Origin: a virus
DNA: 25,118 bases
Virus record (IMG/VR): IMGVR_UViG_3300045135_001765
Coordinates: 1 to 25,118 of that record
Reading direction: 5' to 3' (one strand)
The notes under the pieces: model-generated
Database searches by the model: none
Seen by the model: the letters and a program-made list of their open reading frames with translations, nothing else
What the model was told of the DNA's origin: nothing
Part shown: positions 5,032-13,829 of the stretch, piece after piece
Numbering within the stretch: position 1 is the first letter of the stretch
Layout of the letters: every line of letters begins with the position of its first letter
Position numbers and translations under genes: made by a program

Positions 5032-7134
5032 ATGTTTGGTTTCTACAGCTTTAGTGAAAACCCGTTTTCTTCTGCATCAGTAGTTTCTGCTGGTGAAGTT
5101 AAGACTGGTGTAGCTGTATTAAATGCTTCTGGTAATTTGACTGCTGATTTGTCTAGTGCGGGGTCAATAAGAGAAGGTAATTCTTTATTATCTTCTTCCG
5201 GCATTTTTGATTCAAATGGCAGAATTATACATGGTGGGTTTGCAACATTAGAAGCTTCTGGATCATTAACTTCTAATGGTTCAGTGCTAGTTCCTATTGA
5301 TAGTTCACTTGAAACTTCTGGTAATTTAACATCCAACCTATCTCGTATTGCCGTCACTCTAGAAGGTGCTGCAAGTTTATCTTCTTCTGGTGTATTTGAT
5401 TCAAATATTAGCATTGTACATGGCGGAAGTACATCAGCAAATGCTAGTGGTGAATTAACTTCTGATATACATGTAGTTCATGGTGGTATATCTCAATTTG
5501 AAGCATCTGGTACTTTAGGTGTTAGCGAGTCAGTTGAACTTGATGGAGCCAGTTTATTATTAGATGCTGGTACAGTATCAGCTAAGGGCACACTATTAAG
5601 TGTTTCCTCTAGTTCTACAGAAGCTTCTGGTACAATCACTCCTGATCCAGGTCGTATCATACCACATGGTAGTTCACTATCTGGATCTGGTATTGTAACT
5701 GGAATATCCAGTAGTAGAAAAGTATCTGCTACTGATATATCTTCAAGTGGAACTACAACAAATAATGGAACATTAATACTTGGTCCATTATATTCAATTG
5801 AATCATCTGGAACTATTGATCCTAATGGCAGTAATTTAATTGCTGGTAAAGCCTCGTTGACATCTCCGGGTGCTACGATTGTTGCTGGAAAATTTGCTCC
5901 AGGAGAATTAACAGCATCGTTATCAGCATCTAGTTCTATAACCGCACAAATAGGATTAGATCTTGAAAGTCAAGCCACCATTGGACAGTCAGCAAAAGAG
6001 TTTGTAAGAAAAACTAGTAGGCCAAATTATAAGCCAGCACTACCTGAATTATCTAATAAAGATGAAGGAATAATACTGGACTTCCCATTTTATGAAGGGG
6101 CGGGAAATTTACGCAGTGTTTCCTCTAGGAGACAATCCGGCAATGCAAACATGTTAATGTGGGGAAGGGTTGATGGGCGGCAGTCCTTAACGTCTAATGG
6201 CGGTAGTTATAATAATTATAGAATAACCTTTGATTCTACAGATTTTAATTTCTCAGATGGCAGTTTGCTAATATCATTTAAACCAACAAGGTCTACTTCT
6301 GGTTCTCAGTTCTTGTTTAATAATCGAGGAACTGGAAACAACAATAATGAAATTGATATCTATTCTTTAAATTCCTCAAATAAAGTTCGCATAGATATTT
6401 ATAACGGAACATCCAGACAAAGACTAGATGTACCCAATTTATCCTTTAATAGTTGGAATACCCTTATTGTAACATTTGGTAGCGACCTTAATGCCTCTTT
6501 GAACGGCAATGATTTTTCAACGTATTCTTCCATAACAATGCCATCAGCAAATAGTTCTACGAGTTATATATTAGGAAACCCTGATGACAGATTTGGTATG
6601 GAGGGGTCTGTAGATCATTTTAGGTTATATGACAGGCAGATTTCACAAACTTATGCAAAACAATTACACAGAAATATATACCAAGATTATTCCCTAGATT
6701 ACATAATCCCAAATCACTACGAAATGTCTAGAGTGACCAGCAGTGGTCGCCTGATGAAAAATTCTGGAAGTAATATATCTGCATCTGGTCAGGTGATAAG
6801 TCGCGGATCATTTTTGATTGCGCAAATAAAAGCAGCACTTGGCGGTGAAGGGTTAATTACCGCAAATGGAATTCTTACAGATTTTGATGTTACCACCGCC
6901 TCCTTACAAGCCGCTGCCACAATTGCGGCAAATGGTATTCTACTTGGTGAACTTGATACTGTTCCATTTACAATGCTAATTAATCGACTTGAGGAGTATA
7001 ATATAGATGTATACAGGCAATTTGCCAAGGAGTTTAATGTGGCAAAATCCAAGGCGATATCAGCATCTATAGATAAAATAAATATTACGGACATTAACAT
7101 AGATAAAATTCTAGAAGCAAATCTAGAAAAATAA
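5032..7134 (+). CDS. Repeat adhesin with LamG/concanavalin-like domain
   Basis: The 700-residue protein begins 'MFGFYSFSENPFSS', an N-terminus type common in environmental phage fibre proteins. Residues about 27-325 are an array of roughly 20-residue repeats built on 'ASGxLTSNGS', often ending in 'HGG' (for example near 5220, 5420 and 5480). Residues about 344-540 form a LamG/concanavalin A-like lectin domain: 'GIILDFPFYEGAGNLR' opens it, a 'FNSWNTLIVTF' strand is in the middle, and the hallmark 'SVDHFRLYDRQIS' closes it. Similar SG-type repeats resume at about 566-640, and the C-terminus (650-700) is helical. The domain probably binds surface glycans, making this a receptor-binding or head/tail-decorating fibre. 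SD is weak. It lies just upstream of a second large fibre gene. Confidence 0.75.
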   Translation: MFGFYSFSENPFSSASVVSAGEVKTGVAVLNASGNLTADLSSAGSIREGNSLLSSSGIFDSNGRIIHGGFATLEASGSLTSNGSVLVPIDSSLETSGNLTSNLSRIAVTLEGAASLSSSGVFDSNISIVHGGSTSANASGELTSDIHVVHGGISQFEASGTLGVSESVELDGASLLLDAGTVSAKGTLLSVSSSSTEASGTITPDPGRIIPHGSSLSGSGIVTGISSSRKVSATDISSSGTTTNNGTLILGPLYSIESSGTIDPNGSNLIAGKASLTSPGATIVAGKFAPGELTASLSASSSITAQIGLDLESQATIGQSAKEFVRKTSRPNYKPALPELSNKDEGIILDFPFYEGAGNLRSVSSRRQSGNANMLMWGRVDGRQSLTSNGGSYNNYRITFDSTDFNFSDGSLLISFKPTRSTSGSQFLFNNRGTGNNNNEIDIYSLNSSNKVRIDIYNGTSRQRLDVPNLSFNSWNTLIVTFGSDLNASLNGNDFSTYSSITMPSANSSTSYILGNPDDRFGMEGSVDHFRLYDRQISQTYAKQLHRNIYQDYSLDYIIPNHYEMSRVTSSGRLMKNSGSNISASGQVISRGSFLIAQIKAALGGEGLITANGILTDFDVTTASLQAAATIAANGILLGELDTVPFTMLINRLEEYNIDVYRQFAKEFNVAKSKAISASIDKINITDINIDKILEANLEK
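5110..6010 (+). repeat. Array of ~20-residue SG-rich repeats
   Basis: About fourteen degenerate units of 19-23 codons, each with an 'ASG' or 'SSG' core followed by 'LTSN' or 'IFDSN' and often 'HGG', make up residues about 27-325 of the first adhesin. DNA copies are similar but not identical, so this is an old protein repeat, not a recent tandem duplication. Bounds are approximate. Confidence 0.7.
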
Positions 7135-7143
7135 GGTGGAGTC

Positions 7144-9771
7144 ATGGCATTAGTATTAAAAGATAGAGTAAAGGAGACAACCGCATCAACTGGTACTAGC
7201 ACTATCAATTTGGCTGGTGCTGCTACTGGTTTTGAAGGATTTGTTTCCGCCGTTGGTAGTGGTAATTCGTGTTACTATACAATTCTAGATGCTAATGGTA
7301 GTGCATGGGAAGTAGGAATTGGCACGGTAACTGATGCCGCTACAGATACACTATCTCGTGATACTATTTTGGAGAGTAGCAATAGTGATAATGCCATCTC
7401 TCTTACTAGTGGTACACACACAGTATTCCTAACCTATCCTGCGGATAAATCTGTCTACAGAAATAGTAATGACCAAATTGTTGCCACAGCATCCGGAATT
7501 GTATTTAGTGATTCTACCGTACAAACTACTAGTGCTGTTACATATACTGCCGGAACTGGATTATCACTGTCTGGTACTGAGTTTAATGTTAGCGGTGTAG
7601 ATACAAGCTTATTGCAGGGCACCATTAGTTCCGCACAAATTGCTAATGACGCAATTGATAGTCAACATTATACAGATGGTTCTATTGATACTGCACATAT
7701 TGGTGATGATCAAGTTACATATGCTAAAATACAACATGTTTCTGCTACAGATAGGATTCTTGGTAGGGATAGTGCTGGTGCTGGTGAAATAGAAGAAATC
7801 ACTGCATCAGGTCTTAGAACTATGATAAATGTAGCTGATGGGGCTACTGCAAATGTTGGAGACATAACCTCGGTTATTGCCGGAACTGGACTTTCCGGTG
7901 GCGGCACTAGTGGAGATGTTACTGTAAATGTTAGTGGCGTAGATACAAGCTTATTGCAGGGAACTGTCGCCAATAATCAATTAGCAAATTCGTCAGTAAC
8001 AATAACTGCTGGTACAGGATTGTCAAATGGCGGAAGTGTTGCTCTTGGTGGCAGTGTTAGTATAGATGTCAATCATGCTTCCATAGATCATGATTCTTTA
8101 AACAATTTTGTGGCAAACGAGCATGTTGATCATACATCCGTCACACTTACCGCTGGTTCTGGATTATCTGGTGGTGGGGATATTTCATCTAACAGAACTT
8201 TTAATGCTTTAACAGCAACCACCTCGGCATCTGGTATAACCACCTTAACTAATACAATCAATGGTGATCAAGATAAAGCCTTAACGCCCAAGGCAGTTAA
8301 TGATGCTAATTATTTAACATCTGAAAGTGATACATTACAAACAGTAACAGGTCGTGGTGCTGTTACGACAAATGATATAACAGTTTCTGGTGAGCTTGTA
8401 GTTTCAAGACCAGAGGCATTCGCTGCATTAAAAGTCGCTTCTAGTGGACAACAAATTAGTTTTGGAAATAGAGGCGAAGATGGCAACGACGGCATGGTCA
8501 CGATAAAACTTGATGATGACGGGGCTACTTATGCAGCTAGTTCCGGCGTACAAGTTTCTTTGAATTCTGCAAAAAGTGCTTTAGCTGTCGTTCCAACAGC
8601 CGGAGATACGACAATACCTAGAACCGTATTTAACGGTGGGGATAGTAGCATAAGACCTGATGGTGATGCCGTTGTTAATATCAAATCAATACATGAAGAT
8701 GTACCAAATCTTATTGTCTACGGTAAAAGTGGTGGAACATCCCATTTAACAGAATGGAAAGATTCTGATGGCGACACTGTTGCATACATTGGGGAAAAGG
8801 GCACTCTTAGTTTGGGTAAAGATTTTCATATTCAGAAGTTTGATAGTTATGTAGCTACCGGAGTAGGACCAACAGATGCGAGTGGTGTAGCTTTAACATT
8901 TAACAATGAGGCACTACATAATAGCTATTCCTATAGGATTCGTTGTTATGATGAGGATTCAAATCGTCAAGACGGTTCCGTTTTTCTCGCTAGGAAAAAT
9001 GATGACGATAGTGGCAACTGGGACGTTACGACAGTCGCAATTCAAAAAAATGCTCAGAATGAATATCCAATAGTATTTAATGATGGCGGAACTCTTAAAG
9101 TAAAGACGGGTGGTGCAACCGGTGGAAGAGATATTGTCGTATATATTGAAGGTATATATGTTAATAGAAATGATGTTACAGGATATATTTGGGGCGGGGA
9201 TTTTATTTGGTCAAAAGTTAGTACTGCTGGTGGTTCTCTTCATAGTATTTACGCAAGTGGAAATGTCGGCATAAATAAAGAAGTACCGGCACATGCCTTA
9301 GAGGTTACCGGAACTGGAAACTTTGCAGGTATACAAACACCTTCGATTGAATACACGGATGGTGATGACGCTATAACTATTGCTGATGGTGGCGCTGTAA
9401 CATTCGCTAAATCAATTAATCAAGCAGCAAATACTGCTACTGATGGCGGTATTGTTGACATTGATTGTAGTCTTTCTAACTACCATGAAATACTTATGAA
9501 TGCTGATGCTACTAGAATTAACTTTACTAACGTAACTGCTGGCCAAAGAGTTATTGTTAGATTTAAGCAGCATAGTTCCCATATTGATTTAAATTCAAGT
9601 GAAGGATTTAATGATGTAGATGTTAATGGGAGTAATGCAACTATAAAGTGGGGAGGTGGAGTAGTTCCCACCTTAACAGAAACCAATAACGCCATTGATG
9701 TTTATGGATTTATCTTTGAAAGCACAGTAACTAATGTTATGGCATTTATTATTGCTCAGGATGTTAAATAA
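7144..9771 (+). CDS. Large tail fibre protein
   Basis: The 875-residue protein opens with a conserved fibre attachment-type domain ('MALVLKDRVKETTASTGTST' to about residue 100, including 'DTLSRDTILESSN'). 'IVFSDSTVQTTSAV' follows, a motif common in phage fibres of environmental origin. The centre holds repeats of 'AGTGLSGGG' (four variants) and a duplicated 'SGVDTSLLQGT' unit, suggesting a trimeric beta-solenoid shaft. Near 9260, 'GNVGINKEVPAHALEV' matches the recurring 'GIGTTxPxxxLxV' element of fibre C-terminal regions, and a final beta-rich domain (about 750-875) probably forms the tip. No intramolecular chaperone motif was recognised. AAGGTGGAG at 7133-7141 is the SD; TAATG couples it to the next gene. 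It likely mediates host recognition. Confidence 0.8.
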   Translation: MALVLKDRVKETTASTGTSTINLAGAATGFEGFVSAVGSGNSCYYTILDANGSAWEVGIGTVTDAATDTLSRDTILESSNSDNAISLTSGTHTVFLTYPADKSVYRNSNDQIVATASGIVFSDSTVQTTSAVTYTAGTGLSLSGTEFNVSGVDTSLLQGTISSAQIANDAIDSQHYTDGSIDTAHIGDDQVTYAKIQHVSATDRILGRDSAGAGEIEEITASGLRTMINVADGATANVGDITSVIAGTGLSGGGTSGDVTVNVSGVDTSLLQGTVANNQLANSSVTITAGTGLSNGGSVALGGSVSIDVNHASIDHDSLNNFVANEHVDHTSVTLTAGSGLSGGGDISSNRTFNALTATTSASGITTLTNTINGDQDKALTPKAVNDANYLTSESDTLQTVTGRGAVTTNDITVSGELVVSRPEAFAALKVASSGQQISFGNRGEDGNDGMVTIKLDDDGATYAASSGVQVSLNSAKSALAVVPTAGDTTIPRTVFNGGDSSIRPDGDAVVNIKSIHEDVPNLIVYGKSGGTSHLTEWKDSDGDTVAYIGEKGTLSLGKDFHIQKFDSYVATGVGPTDASGVALTFNNEALHNSYSYRIRCYDEDSNRQDGSVFLARKNDDDSGNWDVTTVAIQKNAQNEYPIVFNDGGTLKVKTGGATGGRDIVVYIEGIYVNRNDVTGYIWGGDFIWSKVSTAGGSLHSIYASGNVGINKEVPAHALEVTGTGNFAGIQTPSIEYTDGDDAITIADGGAVTFAKSINQAANTATDGGIVDIDCSLSNYHEILMNADATRINFTNVTAGQRVIVRFKQHSSHIDLNSSEGFNDVDVNGSNATIKWGGGVVPTLTETNNAIDVYGFIFESTVTNVMAFIIAQDVK
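7597..7961 (+). repeat. Internal duplication in the fibre gene
   Basis: A 23-base stretch at 7597-7619 recurs exactly at 7939-7961, a period of 342 bases (114 codons), encoding 'GVDTSLLQG' in both. Around it 'AGTGLS' repeats recur. It marks a duplicated fibre-shaft unit. Confidence 0.7.
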
Positions 9772-10175
9772 TGGCTAAAAATTTAAGAAACCATGTCGTA
9801 ATCGGCACAGAAAGTGGAACAGAAAGAACAGTTTCAGGAACTGGTCCTAATTATACAGTCTCATATACACCCGGAGACCCTCCTCAGACGTTAATTGTTG
9901 GAGACTATGTTTATATAGAAAAAAGAGAAGCTGGTGCTGGCACTGGCAGTACATTACTTTCTACATATGTGTATGTAATCACAGCGGTAACATATGCTGG
10001 CGGGGAAGGGTCGTCTGATGATATTACAATGCAGTGGCTCTACGAGACAGCCGGAACTTATGGTGACGATTCGCCACTTGATTTATATTCTGGCGGGGGT
10101 AGTTCAGGCGATCCAGAACAGGCACCACATAAATTTGTAAAAATTCTAGGACCGGCATTTACAATGTTTATGTAA
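9771..10175 (+). CDS. Small beta-rich protein after fibre gene, unknown role
   Basis: The 134-residue product starts in a TAATG overlap with the fibre stop, so its translation is tied to the fibre. It is rich in Thr, Tyr, Gly and Val, with strands such as 'GDYVYIEKREAG' and 'TYVYVITAVTYAGG'. A flexible 'GGGSSGDPEQAPHKF' stretch near the end is followed by a hydrophobic tail 'ILGPAFTMFM'. There is no signal peptide. Position and composition suggest a fibre-associated protein such as an assembly partner or a tip subunit, but nothing in the sequence proves it. It is followed after nine bases by the first gene of the glycan-type cassette. Confidence 0.65.
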   Translation: MAKNLRNHVVIGTESGTERTVSGTGPNYTVSYTPGDPPQTLIVGDYVYIEKREAGAGTGSTLLSTYVYVITAVTYAGGEGSSDDITMQWLYETAGTYGDDSPLDLYSGGGSSGDPEQAPHKFVKILGPAFTMFM

Positions 10176-10184
10176 GGATAAAAG

Positions 10185-11228
10185 ATGGAAGATATACATG
10201 AGTGCCAATGTGCTCAGGCGGGATATTGTGAGTTTTTTAAGCAAGAAATGACTTATGATCCACCAAACTGGCAGTGGTGTCAACGGGCTAGTAAGTCTGA
10301 ACGAGATCAATATAAAGCTAATTGCGATAAAAAACACAAAAGAAGAGAAGAACAAAACAGAATGTTCTTGGATGCCGAATACATTACAACAGCACAATTG
10401 ATACAAGAGTGTAAGGATCTATTACTACCTCAAATTGCAAAACTCAATCTTAAAGGTGTAGTAGGTATACCGAGATCAGGAATGCTCCCTGCCAGCATGA
10501 TAGCACTCTGGCTTAATCTGCCCTTATATTTTGTTAATAGGTCTGGTCAACCCAATATATTATCTGCCTCAACAAATTTTGGCGGAATAAGAATGGGGAA
10601 CTTTTTAAGCAGACAGGGTAAACTTTTGGTCGTAGATGATACGATATACAAAGGAAATGCAATTCAAGATTTTAAATCAACATTTCACGAAGACGCTTTT
10701 TATTGCGCTGCTTACGCCCATCCTTCAGCAAAACATAAAGTAGATTTCTTTGCTAAAGAACTGCCCCCTCCACATCTGCTAGAATGGAATCTTTTTAACT
10801 GCACATACATAGAGACTGCGTTATTAGATTTTGATGGCATATTTTGTCCAAATGTTCCATACGAAATGTCTATAGACGAAAAAAAATATATTGACTACAT
10901 AAAAAATGTAGAACCTTTCCCACACAGAATCCCTAAAACACATTGTAAGGGAATTGTAACTGCACGCTTAGAAAAATATCGCTCCATCACGGAAGATTGG
11001 CTAAGACGACACGAAATTAATTACGGGTTCTTAAAAATGTTCCCCACAGAAGATAAAGCCAAGAGAGATAAAAATCATGTAGAAGAGTCGTCAACATTTA
11101 AGTCCGAGATATTTTCCAATTCTGATGCTAACTTTTTTATAGAGAGCGAAATACCAGAAGCGGTCAGAATAAGAAAGAAAAGTGGAAAGTTTGTAATCTG
11201 TCCGGAGGAAAAATTATGCAGGAGATGA
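10185..11228 (+). CDS. Phosphoribosyltransferase-HAD fusion with Cys cluster
   Basis: The 347-residue protein has three parts. Cys7, Cys9, Cys15 and Cys32 near the N-terminus (C-x-C-x5-C-x16-C) could bind a metal. Residues about 65-195 are a type I phosphoribosyltransferase: 'VVGIPRSGMLPA' (92-103) is the early strand-loop, and 'VVDDTIYKGNAI' (149-160) is the PRPP-binding loop with the paired Asp. Residues about 205-335 look like a HAD-family hydrolase: 'LLDFDGIFC' with Asp215 and Asp217 (motif I), 'GIVTAR' with Thr259 (motif II), a Lys-rich helix, and 'FFIESE' as a possible motif IV. Such a protein could use or make a phosphorylated ribosyl compound and remove a phosphate. Substrate is unknown. 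It heads a four-gene coupled cassette; its end overlaps the glycosyltransferase start by 13 bases. Confidence 0.78.
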   Translation: MEDIHECQCAQAGYCEFFKQEMTYDPPNWQWCQRASKSERDQYKANCDKKHKRREEQNRMFLDAEYITTAQLIQECKDLLLPQIAKLNLKGVVGIPRSGMLPASMIALWLNLPLYFVNRSGQPNILSASTNFGGIRMGNFLSRQGKLLVVDDTIYKGNAIQDFKSTFHEDAFYCAAYAHPSAKHKVDFFAKELPPPHLLEWNLFNCTYIETALLDFDGIFCPNVPYEMSIDEKKYIDYIKNVEPFPHRIPKTHCKGIVTARLEKYRSITEDWLRRHEINYGFLKMFPTEDKAKRDKNHVEESSTFKSEIFSNSDANFFIESEIPEAVRIRKKSGKFVICPEEKLCRR

Positions 11229-12022
11229 CCTGCCGAATAAAATTAATTGACAGACTCCCCACAAAAACATCAGATTTAGCAATATGTTTGATACCCGCAA
11301 ATAAAGAAGCAATGGACCAACTTGATATTACTAGGAATAACATACTACAATATGCTGAAAAATGCAATGCCGATTATATAGAATTAACCGGAGACCAAGC
11401 TCCAGACTGGCCCATGTCGAATAAGTACAGGCTAAAACAGGTAATTGAAAATTACGAACATACATTGTACCTTGATTGTGATGTAGTAATTAAAAAAGAC
11501 GCTCCAAATATATATGAAGAATTAGCATCAGACAAAGTTTGTTTTGTTAATGAGTGGAATATAATCAAATCATCATCCCATGCTATTTTTAGAGCTATGA
11601 AATCAGAAAGAGAAATGGCTGTACAGGAATATCCGCATCTAGCCAAAAACAATAGAGACATCCAGCCGAATGGGGGTGTTATGTTGTTTCCAAAAAAACT
11701 AGCACACAGATATTCGCAACCGCCCTCATTTTACTCTAAAAGATGGTGCTTTGATCAAGACTACCTTCTACTTAACTTAGAAGATAACGAATTTGAATTA
11801 ATGGACTGGAAATATAATTTAGAGTTTATTGATTTTGATTTTTGGTCAAAAATAGAAGATGCCTACTTTGTTCATTTAAATGGTTCTAGACCATTAGATT
11901 ATAGATTAAGACTACTAAATAGGTTGGTCAATAAAGAATATTCCTTTCTACCACAACCGGAACCAAAGGAAAATGATTCTGTTATAGATAGATTTAGACC
12001 AAATTGGAGGACGGAATGTTAA
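11216..12022 (+). CDS. GT-A (GT8-like) glycosyltransferase
   Basis: The 268-residue protein shows the ordered marks of a nucleotide-sugar-dependent GT-A glycosyltransferase. There is a beta-alpha start 'DLAICLIPANK', then a D-x-D metal site in 'LYLDCDVVI' (Asp87 and Asp89), 'QPNGGVMLF' (150-158) as the acceptor/donor loop, 'CFDQDYLLL' (178-186), and 'YFVHLNGSRP' with His220, matching the late metal-binding His of GT8-type enzymes. It would transfer a sugar from an NDP-sugar to a protein or glycan. A GGAGG just before ATG 11216, in the 3' end of the previous gene, is its SD. It is coupled to a sulfotransferase-like gene downstream. Donor and acceptor cannot be read from sequence. There is no membrane anchor, so it should act in the cytoplasm. 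Confidence 0.82.
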   Translation: MQEMTCRIKLIDRLPTKTSDLAICLIPANKEAMDQLDITRNNILQYAEKCNADYIELTGDQAPDWPMSNKYRLKQVIENYEHTLYLDCDVVIKKDAPNIYEELASDKVCFVNEWNIIKSSSHAIFRAMKSEREMAVQEYPHLAKNNRDIQPNGGVMLFPKKLAHRYSQPPSFYSKRWCFDQDYLLLNLEDNEFELMDWKYNLEFIDFDFWSKIEDAYFVHLNGSRPLDYRLRLLNRLVNKEYSFLPQPEPKENDSVIDRFRPNWRTEC

Positions 12023-12576
12023 TCAATAACAAAAAAAAGATTTTAATCTGGCAACCGTTTAAGAACTACAGCACATCCTTAGCAGACTATATGACTAGCT
12101 ATAGAATTTTTGGTCATGGTAGATTTCTCTTTGCGCAAGGTCCAGTACCGTATCTAGCAAGTGATGTAACAGAACCAGATGATGAACCTGGTTTGGGGCA
12201 TACAAATTGGCTTCCAGCTAGATGCACAAATTATTTAAAACTTCTACCAATAAGAAATCCTTATGATAGAGTTGTCAGTCAGTGGAAGAATACATTAAAG
12301 GATTGGGGGAATATTGAATTCGATGAGTGGCTTATGATTCATTCCAAACAATTAGTAATGTTTCCAGTAACAAAAATGTACAAATACGAAAAACTTATTA
12401 AGGTCGAGCATATACAGGATGAGTTAGAACAATTGGGTTTGTGGAGTAGTGAGCACGAATTCCCGCACAATAATAAATCAGATATTCAAAATGATTTTAA
12501 ATTAAACCAGAAACAAAAAGATATTATATATTATTTTCACTATAGTGATTTTGTCGAAGGGGGATATGAAAAGTGA
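12016..12576 (+). CDS. Small sulfotransferase-like protein
   Basis: The 186-residue protein carries both PAPS-binding signatures of sulfotransferases. The N-terminal 'QPFKNYSTSL' (13-22) aligns position by position with the 5'-phosphosulfate loop P-K-T-G-S-T-S-L, including Lys16 and Ser19-Thr20-Ser21. 'PIRNPYDRVVSQW' (78-90) is a clear 3'-phosphate site with Arg80 and Ser88. It would move sulfate from PAPS to a hydroxyl, presumably on a sugar given its neighbours. ATG 12016 is chosen because GGAGG at 12006-12010 lies five bases before it; an upstream in-frame TTG at 12004 would overlap that SD. At 186 residues it is shorter than most members (often 250-350), so it may be a compact or reduced form. 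It overlaps the glycosyltransferase by seven bases and the epimerase by four. Confidence 0.75.
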   Translation: MLINNKKKILIWQPFKNYSTSLADYMTSYRIFGHGRFLFAQGPVPYLASDVTEPDDEPGLGHTNWLPARCTNYLKLLPIRNPYDRVVSQWKNTLKDWGNIEFDEWLMIHSKQLVMFPVTKMYKYEKLIKVEHIQDELEQLGLWSSEHEFPHNNKSDIQNDFKLNQKQKDIIYYFHYSDFVEGGYEK

Positions 12577-13457
12577 CCCTAAAGGCAGTCGTAACTGGAG
12601 GTTGTGGTTTTATAGGTTCTAACCTAGTTGATAAACTTGTTCAGAAAAGCTTCGAAGTTATTGTCATAGATAATAAATTTGATAATAAAAATAAAAACGC
12701 TTCATATCATAAATATGATATAAACAACTATGAACTAATTGAACCATTATTTATGGATATTGATTATGTATTTCACTTAGCAGCAGAATCGAGAATACAA
12801 CCAACTATTGAAAATCCAAGACTTGCAATGAAAACAAATGTTCTTGGCACATGTAATGTTCTAGAAGCTTCCAGAAAATATAACATTAAAAGAGTAGTGT
12901 ACTCATCTACTTCTTCAGCTTATGGATTAAAGAATGACCCACCACTTGTTGAGGATATGCATAGAGATTGTTTAAATCCATATTCAGTCTCAAAATGTGC
13001 TGGAGAAGATCTGTGTAAAATGTATTACAGTCTATATGGATTAGAAACTGTTACATTTAGATACTTTAATGTATATGGAGAAAGACAACCAACAAAAGGA
13101 CAGTACGCTCCGGTAATTGGTATTTTTCAAAGACAATATTCAAATGGTGAGCCGATGACCGTCGTTGGTGATGGGTCACAAACCCGTGACTATGTTCATG
13201 TTTCAGATGTTGTAAATGCCAATATTCTCATGGCTTTACACGAAGATGAGTCTTGTTTAGGTGAGATTTTTAATGTGGGAACTGGTACTAGTTATTCAGT
13301 TATGGATATAGTATCTATGGTAGGATCTGATAATGCAAACTATGTTAATGTTCCAAATCGAGTTGGTGAAGCGAAAAATACACTCGCTGATAATAAAAAA
13401 CTGAAATCATTTGGATGGACCCCTAAAATCAAACTCCAAGAATGGATTAAGTCATAA
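12573..13457 (+). CDS. NAD-dependent sugar-nucleotide epimerase/dehydratase
   Basis: The 294-residue protein is an extended short-chain dehydrogenase/reductase. It has the Rossmann loop 'TGGCGFIGS' (8-16), the 'VFHLAA' strand, a Ser-rich 'SSTSSAYG' (111-118) and the catalytic Tyr137/Lys141 in 'NPYSVSK'. 'FRYFNVYGERQ' follows, then 'GDGSQTRDYVHVSDV', which is typical of UDP-glucose 4-epimerase/WbpP-like enzymes. It would convert an NDP-hexose (or acid), supplying donor for the glycosyltransferase two genes upstream. The start is GTG 12573 in a GTGA overlap with the sulfotransferase stop, with AAGGGGG (12557-12563) as SD. It ends a little earlier than typical 310-340-residue members, so the last helices are short. 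Substrate specificity is not resolvable; dehydratase activity is less likely given the whole pattern. Confidence 0.85.
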   Translation: MTLKAVVTGGCGFIGSNLVDKLVQKSFEVIVIDNKFDNKNKNASYHKYDINNYELIEPLFMDIDYVFHLAAESRIQPTIENPRLAMKTNVLGTCNVLEASRKYNIKRVVYSSTSSAYGLKNDPPLVEDMHRDCLNPYSVSKCAGEDLCKMYYSLYGLETVTFRYFNVYGERQPTKGQYAPVIGIFQRQYSNGEPMTVVGDGSQTRDYVHVSDVVNANILMALHEDESCLGEIFNVGTGTSYSVMDIVSMVGSDNANYVNVPNRVGEAKNTLADNKKLKSFGWTPKIKLQEWIKS

Positions 13458-13520: not shown

Positions 13521-13829
13521 ATGGCGGCTAATGAAATACATTTAAACGATGTGGGAACACAGTTCAAACTTACAATATCAGATGCTGGTACTGCGGTTGA
13601 CGTATCATCTGCCACAAAAACAATAAATTTTAGAAGACCTGACGGCACTTGTTACGCAAAAACCGCCACAAATTTTACTGATGGTACAGATGGTATAATA
13701 TCATATATCACAGAATCTGGTGATCTCGATACAACTGGAACATGGAAATTACAGGCTTTTGTGGATTTTGGGGCGACAGAATTTTATTCAGATATTCATT
13801 CATTCCGAGTCCACAAAAACATCTGTTAG
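13521..13829 (+). CDS. BppU-type Ig-like virion protein
   Basis: The 102-residue protein has the layout of a baseplate upper protein (BppU) N-terminal-like domain: 'HLNDVGTQFKLTISDAGTAV' with 'VSSATKTINFRRPDGT', then 'DGTDGIISYIT' and 'GTWKLQAFVDFG', ending in a 'DIHSFRV' strand. This all-beta domain is found in phage baseplate and tail-associated proteins and often stands alone as a small virion protein. GGGTGAAGAT before ATG 13521 is an acceptable SD. Sixty-three bases separate it from the cassette, the first clear gap after four coupled genes, and nine bases separate it from the neck adaptor. It marks the return to structural genes. Confidence 0.72.
   Translation: MAANEIHLNDVGTQFKLTISDAGTAVDVSSATKTINFRRPDGTCYAKTATNFTDGTDGIISYITESGDLDTTGTWKLQAFVDFGATEFYSDIHSFRVHKNIC

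Follow-up and report, generated by a model that had tools for sequence, protein, structure and literature searches.

Bipartite enzymes that join a phosphoribosyltransferase (PRTase) fold to a haloacid dehalogenase (HAD) phosphatase transfer ribofuranose-5-phosphate from phosphoribosyl pyrophosphate (PRPP) to a glycan hydroxyl and then remove the phosphate (PMC10299916, PMC11127046, PMC11231755, PMC12096443). These gPRT-PRP ribofuranosyltransferases include CriT/CrpP of Bcs3 from Haemophilus influenzae type b, Cj1432 from Campylobacter jejuni, and ORF5 and ORF7 of the Klebsiella pneumoniae O4 and O7 clusters. Ribofuranose chemistry from PRPP is also known on phages, in the PPPRS system, where a membrane UbiA-type enzyme accompanies a flippase and a GT-C glycosyltransferase and seroconversion has been proposed (PMC11127046). 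Sulfotransferases, in turn, recur in marine phage genomes without an assigned role, as with Sulfotransfer_3 proteins of OM43-type phages, whose function was stated to be unclear (PMC10580990). Here we analyzed a 25,118-base virus fragment (IMG/VR record IMGVR_UViG_3300045135_001765; hereafter the window), which probably derives from an uncultured marine phage and carries a four-gene cassette within a same-strand run of virion genes. The cassette would share the use of PRPP with PPPRS and a putative 3'-phosphoadenosine 5'-phosphosulfate (PAPS) sulfotransferase with the marine phages; unlike them, it encodes soluble enzymes in a virion operon, and its putative sulfotransferase is of the Sulfotransfer_2 type and has a PRTase-HAD protein as its partner within a glycan cassette. 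Our preferred reading, to which we give a probability of roughly 0.5, is that these genes form an exchangeable cassette for glycan decoration, which occupies a fixed site in the late (virion) operon and acts on a virion surface protein.

The four open reading frames (ORFs) lie on the plus strand and overlap by 13, 7, and 4 bases, as an earlier note on this DNA had reported. ORF1 (10185..11228) encodes a PRTase-HAD fusion with a Cys-rich leader module (10185..10340, supported by an alignment of relatives and by second copies elsewhere), a PRTase domain (about residues 57-198), and a HAD phosphatase domain (about residues 206-340). It is followed by ORF2 (11216..12022), a glycosyltransferase family 8 (GT8)-like protein of the GT-A type with D87/D89 and H220; ORF3 (12016..12576), a putative small PAPS sulfotransferase of the Sulfotransfer_2 family with K16-x-x-S-T-S, R80, S88, and HNNKS near its C-terminus; and ORF4 (12573..13457, GTG start), a putative GalE-like nucleoside diphosphate (NDP)-sugar epimerase of the extended short-chain dehydrogenase/reductase (SDR) type. 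The motifs that had been named for all four genes could be read directly, and their catalytic residues were invariant in every relative that was aligned (none was found for ORF4). We do not regard the four-gene run as a product of chance. ORFs 1-3 had no match among 50,697 isolate phage records. The G+C content of ORF2-ORF4 is 33-34%, compared with 38-42% in the flanking genes, which fits recent acquisition without proving it. Scans for promoters and terminators gave no usable signal.

In order to place the cassette in its genomic context, we surveyed related viral loci, several of which come from fragmentary records. A scan with ORF1 recovered 12 viral loci and a scan with ORF2 two more; as a check on bias, we also took as query the gene that follows the site, which is encoded by 165 stretches, 80 of them kept. 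The deduplicated set held 56 loci with enough upstream sequence, 14 with ORF1 and 42 without it. Overall, ORF1 was present in 21 contigs, the window and 20 other viral contigs, and wherever the flanks were covered it occupied the same site. Upstream lies a gene pair encoding a tail-fiber-like protein (7144..9771, plus strand; 875 residues, weak Phage_fiber_2 match) and a 134-residue protein ('up134', 9771..10175, plus strand, recognized from gene maps of related loci). The downstream border of the exchange site is a BppU_N-like gene (13521..13829, plus strand; BppU_N 6.6e-4, below the cut-off), which none of the cassette loci in the deduplicated survey lacks. We found a sulfotransferase-like gene, from any of three families, in 14/14 ORF1 loci and in 0/42 others. 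The gene for the 134-residue protein was present in 13/14 ORF1 loci and 0/42 others (Fisher 7e-12, although p-values here are too small, as locus counts treat related phages as independent), the sole exception being an incomplete contig, and the protein was found only in loci with ORF1 or its Cys leader. Moreover, a C-terminal domain of the fiber protein (about residues 755-874) accompanied 31/33 cassette loci of the redundant set, compared with 14/65 others, and it was present in every cassette locus in which the fiber gene is covered. In one group of relatives (L005:5791-7167), the 134-residue domain forms the N-terminus of a 458-residue protein, the remainder of which looks by eye like a repeat-rich beta-helix.

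The genes between these borders are exchanged around a constant ORF1. Those following it in relatives include Methyltransf_24, PS_pyruv_trans, radical SAM/SPASM, and CTP_transf_like genes as well as the three sulfotransferase-like families. Counting families recognized at the motif level, ORF1 is paired with a sulfotransferase-like gene in 20/21 contigs; only L003 is without one and has instead a large uncharacterized gene and a cytidylyltransferase. The earlier note had called a sulfotransferase together with a glycosyltransferase in a virion operon unusual; in view of how often ORF1 and a sulfotransferase-like gene are paired, this description is only partly right. The order ORF1-ORF2-ORF3 recurs in five contigs (L014, L015, L057, L064, and L110, of which L014 and L015 share the same cassette), each with a polysaccharide pyruvyltransferase where the window has ORF4; among the contigs surveyed, only the window has all four genes in this order. 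One further relative (L012/L030) matches the window at about 91% identity over 8.6 kb downstream; it retains no more than the first 43 codons of ORF1, and the BppU_N-like gene follows directly. Therefore, loss of the cassette is possible without loss of the virion genes on either side.

To characterize ORF1, we compared both of its domains with known enzymes. Its sequence contains a PRPP-loop-like motif, LLVVDDTIYKGNA, and the HAD motifs LLDFDG and IVTARLEKYR; the DDT...G of the PRPP loop and HAD residues D215, D217, T259, R261, K306, and E320 are invariant in all aligned relatives. A single-sequence Pfam search with the PRTase domain scored below the cut-off, and a 10-member profile matched purine PRTases at 4.7e-6. 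Purine/xanthine PRTases are its nearest kin by profile, NCBIfam, and structure, and Foldseek placed the PRTase fold of the ORF1 model nearest to XGPRT (probability 1.0). The C-terminal domain gave HAD-type structural matches, the nearest being Pnkp1. Full-length homologs with the same domain order and the same motifs in both domains are encoded on bacterial plasmids (tblastn 2e-31 to 1e-39; ORF1-family profile 1.3e-49), where they are annotated as an uncharacterized 'phosphoribosyltransferase family protein' in Paracoccus, Rhizobium, Sinorhizobium, and Novosphingobium and share about 28-35% identity with ORF1. They differ from ORF1 in having no Cys leader and, in the annotated loci seen, no adjoining sulfotransferase. 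Several lie in polysaccharide clusters: the Paracoccus homologs are found among glycosyltransferases, a lipopolysaccharide (LPS)-biosynthesis protein, and a GNVR protein, while the surroundings of the Rhizobium homolog examined are of another, mixed kind and include one glycosyltransferase, on the downstream side.

Like the gPRT-PRP enzymes, ORF1 unites a PRPP-binding PRTase-fold domain with a HAD phosphatase alongside glycosyltransferases in a glycan cluster; unlike them, it is phage-borne, starts with a Cys-rich leader, and has a PRTase domain nearest to XGPRT. We propose that it works as they do because it has the same two domains and its Paracoccus homologs lie in polysaccharide clusters, but we do not class it as a member, since no sequence match was detected and its domain order is reversed. 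The most likely activity of ORF1 is the transfer of ribofuranose from PRPP. Synthesis of an NDP-sugar, the role assigned to it in the earlier note, is less likely in view of the PRPP-dependent ribofuranosyl precedent and the homologs in polysaccharide clusters.

The remaining three proteins varied in how closely they matched known families. Pfam bore out the families proposed for ORF4, strongly, and for ORF3, just above the cut-off, but not those proposed for ORF2 and for the PRTase domain of ORF1. ORF2 scored 18.9 bits against the Glyco_transf_8 cut-off of 24.3, and the same model was weakly matched (E<=1) by 5/5 of its relatives; the YLDCD motif (D87, D89) and the C-terminal HLNG/HVNG (H220) are invariant across those aligned. 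We class it as GT8-like rather than GT8. ORF3 narrowly passed the curated Sulfotransfer_2 cut-off (24.6 bits versus 22), as did one relative (23.3). Searches of the PDB with the sequences of ORF2 and ORF3 returned nothing useful. A single-sequence scan of viral contigs found no relatives of ORF3, whereas a two-member alignment found five. A TTG start at 12004 in the program-made list was rejected in favor of the ATG at 12016, since the conserved part begins there in every homolog. ORF4 carries TGGCGFIG and Y137/K141 (TGxxGxxG and YxxxK) and matched Epimerase (PF01370, 7.6e-59), a PHROG nucleotide-sugar epimerase family (9.7e-93), and, in the PDB, uridine diphosphate (UDP)-glucose 4-epimerase (7e-54). 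Judged by its sequence, it is certainly an extended SDR of the GalE type. It scored below every listed NCBIfam equivalog cut-off, and a single-sequence scan of viral contigs found no relatives of it. ORF4 is the only protein of the cassette that would plausibly make an NDP-sugar.

Of the three sulfotransferase-like families, that of ORF3 is the Pfam-supported one. Sulfotransfer_2 was matched by 5/13 sulfotransferase-like proteins scanned, a set in which ORF3-family members also numbered five. The second family (SulfB) was assigned from its FIHIPRTGG, R..S, and LPHLNKS-like motifs only, and the third (SulfC) has at best a weak Sulfotransfer_1 match, seen for two members, not named, in the 13-protein scan. 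Homology between ORF3 and SulfB is not claimed, as a profile comparison of the two families failed.

In the sequence of steps that we infer, ORF4 would interconvert a host NDP-hexose, e.g., UDP-glucose to UDP-galactose, and ORF2 would move a hexose onto an acceptor. The PRTase domain of ORF1 would then use PRPP to attach ribofuranose-5-phosphate to a hydroxyl of an acceptor, its HAD domain would strip the 5-phosphate and expose a hydroxyl, and ORF3 would cap a hydroxyl with sulfate from host PAPS. The hydroxyl exposed by the HAD domain might offer a natural place for variable capping enzymes. Because related phages retain ORF1 but exchange its companions, their glycans would differ from one phage to another. 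The acceptor is most likely a virion surface protein encoded next to the cassette, either the fiber C-terminal domain or the 134-residue protein, which is a candidate acceptor or adaptor. We favor the virion as the target, at about even odds, because of the late-operon position, the co-inheritance with the 134-residue gene and the type of fiber C-terminal domain, and the lack of an encoded flippase or GT-C. No cassette protein contains a stretch of strong hydrophobicity such as a membrane helix would have, and therefore no flippase or GT-C is encoded, unlike in the usual host-surface systems. The earlier note saw here a phage cassette for glycan modification that lies beside fiber genes in a virion operon and includes a glycosyltransferase and a PAPS-type sulfotransferase, and that view is supported. 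We know of no PRPP-dependent transferase, sulfotransferase, or exchangeable cassette in mycobacteriophage virion glycosylation. That system resembles the present one in that phage-encoded glycosyltransferases are linked to glycans of capsid and tail proteins (as cited in PMC12619734).

Several observations weigh against this interpretation. The fiber C-terminal domain is not restricted to cassette loci, being found in 14 that have no cassette. Purine PRTases are the closest structural relatives of ORF1, whose PRTase-then-HAD order is the reverse of that in Bcs3 and Cj1432, and no solved gPRT-PRP chain (e.g., Bcs3) was found among PDB sequence matches at E<=1 or the best 50 structural matches, although we did not confirm that the PDB copy used contains Bcs3. 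The AlphaFold model of ORF3 is of low confidence (predicted local distance difference test 59.7) and its Foldseek matches are weak (E at least 0.15), and SulfB, the most widespread family in relatives, was not confirmed by Pfam, PDB, or profile comparison. In addition, no adenosine 5'-phosphosulfate (APS) kinase was found in 12 relative records, and PAPS must therefore come from the host.

The cassette could instead modify the host cell surface, adding ribose, hexose, and sulfate to a cytoplasmic host polysaccharide precursor and causing seroconversion or superinfection exclusion. The exopolysaccharide and LPS clusters that house cellular homologs of ORF1 would suit this role, as would the pyruvyltransferase and cytidylyltransferase of sister cassettes, which are polysaccharide-type enzymes, and there is a phage-encoded pentofuranose system with suggested seroconversion (PMC11127046). 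We nonetheless consider a host-surface role rather unlikely, given the position in a late virion operon, the strict co-inheritance with the 134-residue gene of the fiber region, and cassette proteins that include neither a polymerase nor any of the membrane components named above.

A different chemistry for ORF1 is also conceivable, in which the PRTase domain forms a nucleotide-like compound and the HAD domain removes its 5'-phosphate, yielding a nucleoside, so that the product of the cassette would be a modified small molecule or a decoration of nucleoside type. Predicted operons for nucleoside-like biosynthesis contain PRTase and HAD genes together, and both the resemblance of the PRTase domain to xanthine/purine PRTases in sequence and structure and that of the HAD domain to polynucleotide 3'-phosphatase types are in keeping with such a product. 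However, in phages as in plasmids, ORF1 and its homologs are regularly accompanied by glycosyltransferases and by enzymes that tailor glycans, and the combination of PRTase and HAD has an established precedent in O-glycoside formation, which together make a nucleoside product improbable. We likewise doubt, though less so for SulfB, that ORF3, SulfB, and SulfC are P-loop kinases or other nucleotide-binding proteins instead of sulfotransferases. The short length of these proteins (about 180 residues), their weak scores, and the presence of some kinases among the lower-ranking Foldseek matches of ORF3 would agree with that identity, but ORF3 and one relative pass the Sulfotransfer_2 cut-off, five members of the scan match that family, and the top seven structural matches of ORF3 are all sulfotransferases. 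Moreover, the K16 loop (K16-N-Y-S-T-S), R80, S88, and C-terminal HxNKS (of the HxNxS type) are invariant across five ORF3 homologs. Sulfotransferases and pyruvyltransferases are not known as partners of DNA hypermodification. Protection of phage DNA from restriction by sugars on modified bases is very improbable for this reason and because the cassette lies in the fiber region, away from replication genes, and no thymidylate-synthase-family base hydroxymethylase was found in 12 relative records (several of them fragments), even though phage DNA glycosylation, including pentose modification, is known (PMC12838424).

The Cys leader of ORF1, in which C7, C9, C15, and C32 are invariant in the alignment of relatives, is phage-specific. 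Second copies are present in relatives G403, G411, and G412, and in the same phage genomes the leader is also fused to other glycosyltransferases: a 634-residue protein, in which the first domain shares homology with ORF2, and a 373-residue protein that by eye resembles the second half of the 634-residue fusion. The leader may serve the glycosylation machinery as a common tag for docking or metal binding. In G403, a second glycan cluster (46-58 kb; L140:2964-8759) contains a fusion of a Cys module, an ORF2-like glycosyltransferase, and a second domain, together with a cytidylyltransferase-like gene, Methyltransf_24, and a PAP2 phosphatase. Near the second Cys-module gene of G412 lies a phage protein matching RXYLT1_C (ribitol xylosyltransferase, 3.1e-9; L138:8604-9479). 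Between one and four DUF1501 (PF07394) genes lie beside a second glycan cluster in relatives (G403/L140:9052-11968, G412/L138:6108-8611, and five other records), several of which have them in tandem. Among plasmids, the planctomycete Singulisphaera gave the best match to these genes, and the own copies of most SAR202-order genomes score far lower; these genes are a possible, Planctomycetota-like clue to the host. One surveyed locus, L016, is VFHP01000007.1, a 152-kb contig in the SAR202 metagenome-assembled genome OSU_TB57 that is 100% identical over 17 kb to UViG_3300030329_003696; it is a virus contig in a bacterial genome bin. Among 400 genomes of the phylum of that bin, only weak partial matches to ORF1 were found, the virus contig itself aside.

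Elsewhere in the window, the same-strand run around the cassette includes head proteins (PHROG head families), a candidate major capsid protein with distant similarity to its counterpart in Bacillus phage G (20% identity), and a tape-measure gene. Adjoining the fiber gene, positions 5032-7134 encode a 700-residue protein with a Laminin_G_3/concanavalin-like lectin domain (3.3e-8), likely a carbohydrate-binding virion protein.

A broader and more tentative proposal, for which we judge the chances to be short of even, is that these phages possess an interchangeable virion-glycan serotype system. An ORF1-type ribosyltransferase would be fixed at the fiber locus, and the enzymes adding sulfate, pyruvate, methyl, and other caps would be swapped, giving ribose-based, often sulfated glycans that differ among strains much as O-antigens do among bacteria. 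At this locus, a putative sulfotransferase belongs to a well-delimited, exchangeable cassette that also encodes a likely ribosyltransferase and is bordered by virion genes, and a natural relative without the cassette is available for comparison; the role of sulfation in phages thus becomes directly testable. If our preferred reading holds, PRPP-dependent glycan ribosylation would reach beyond bacterial capsules and O-antigens and include phage particles, and the uncharacterized bacterial PRTase-HAD family would gain a candidate function.

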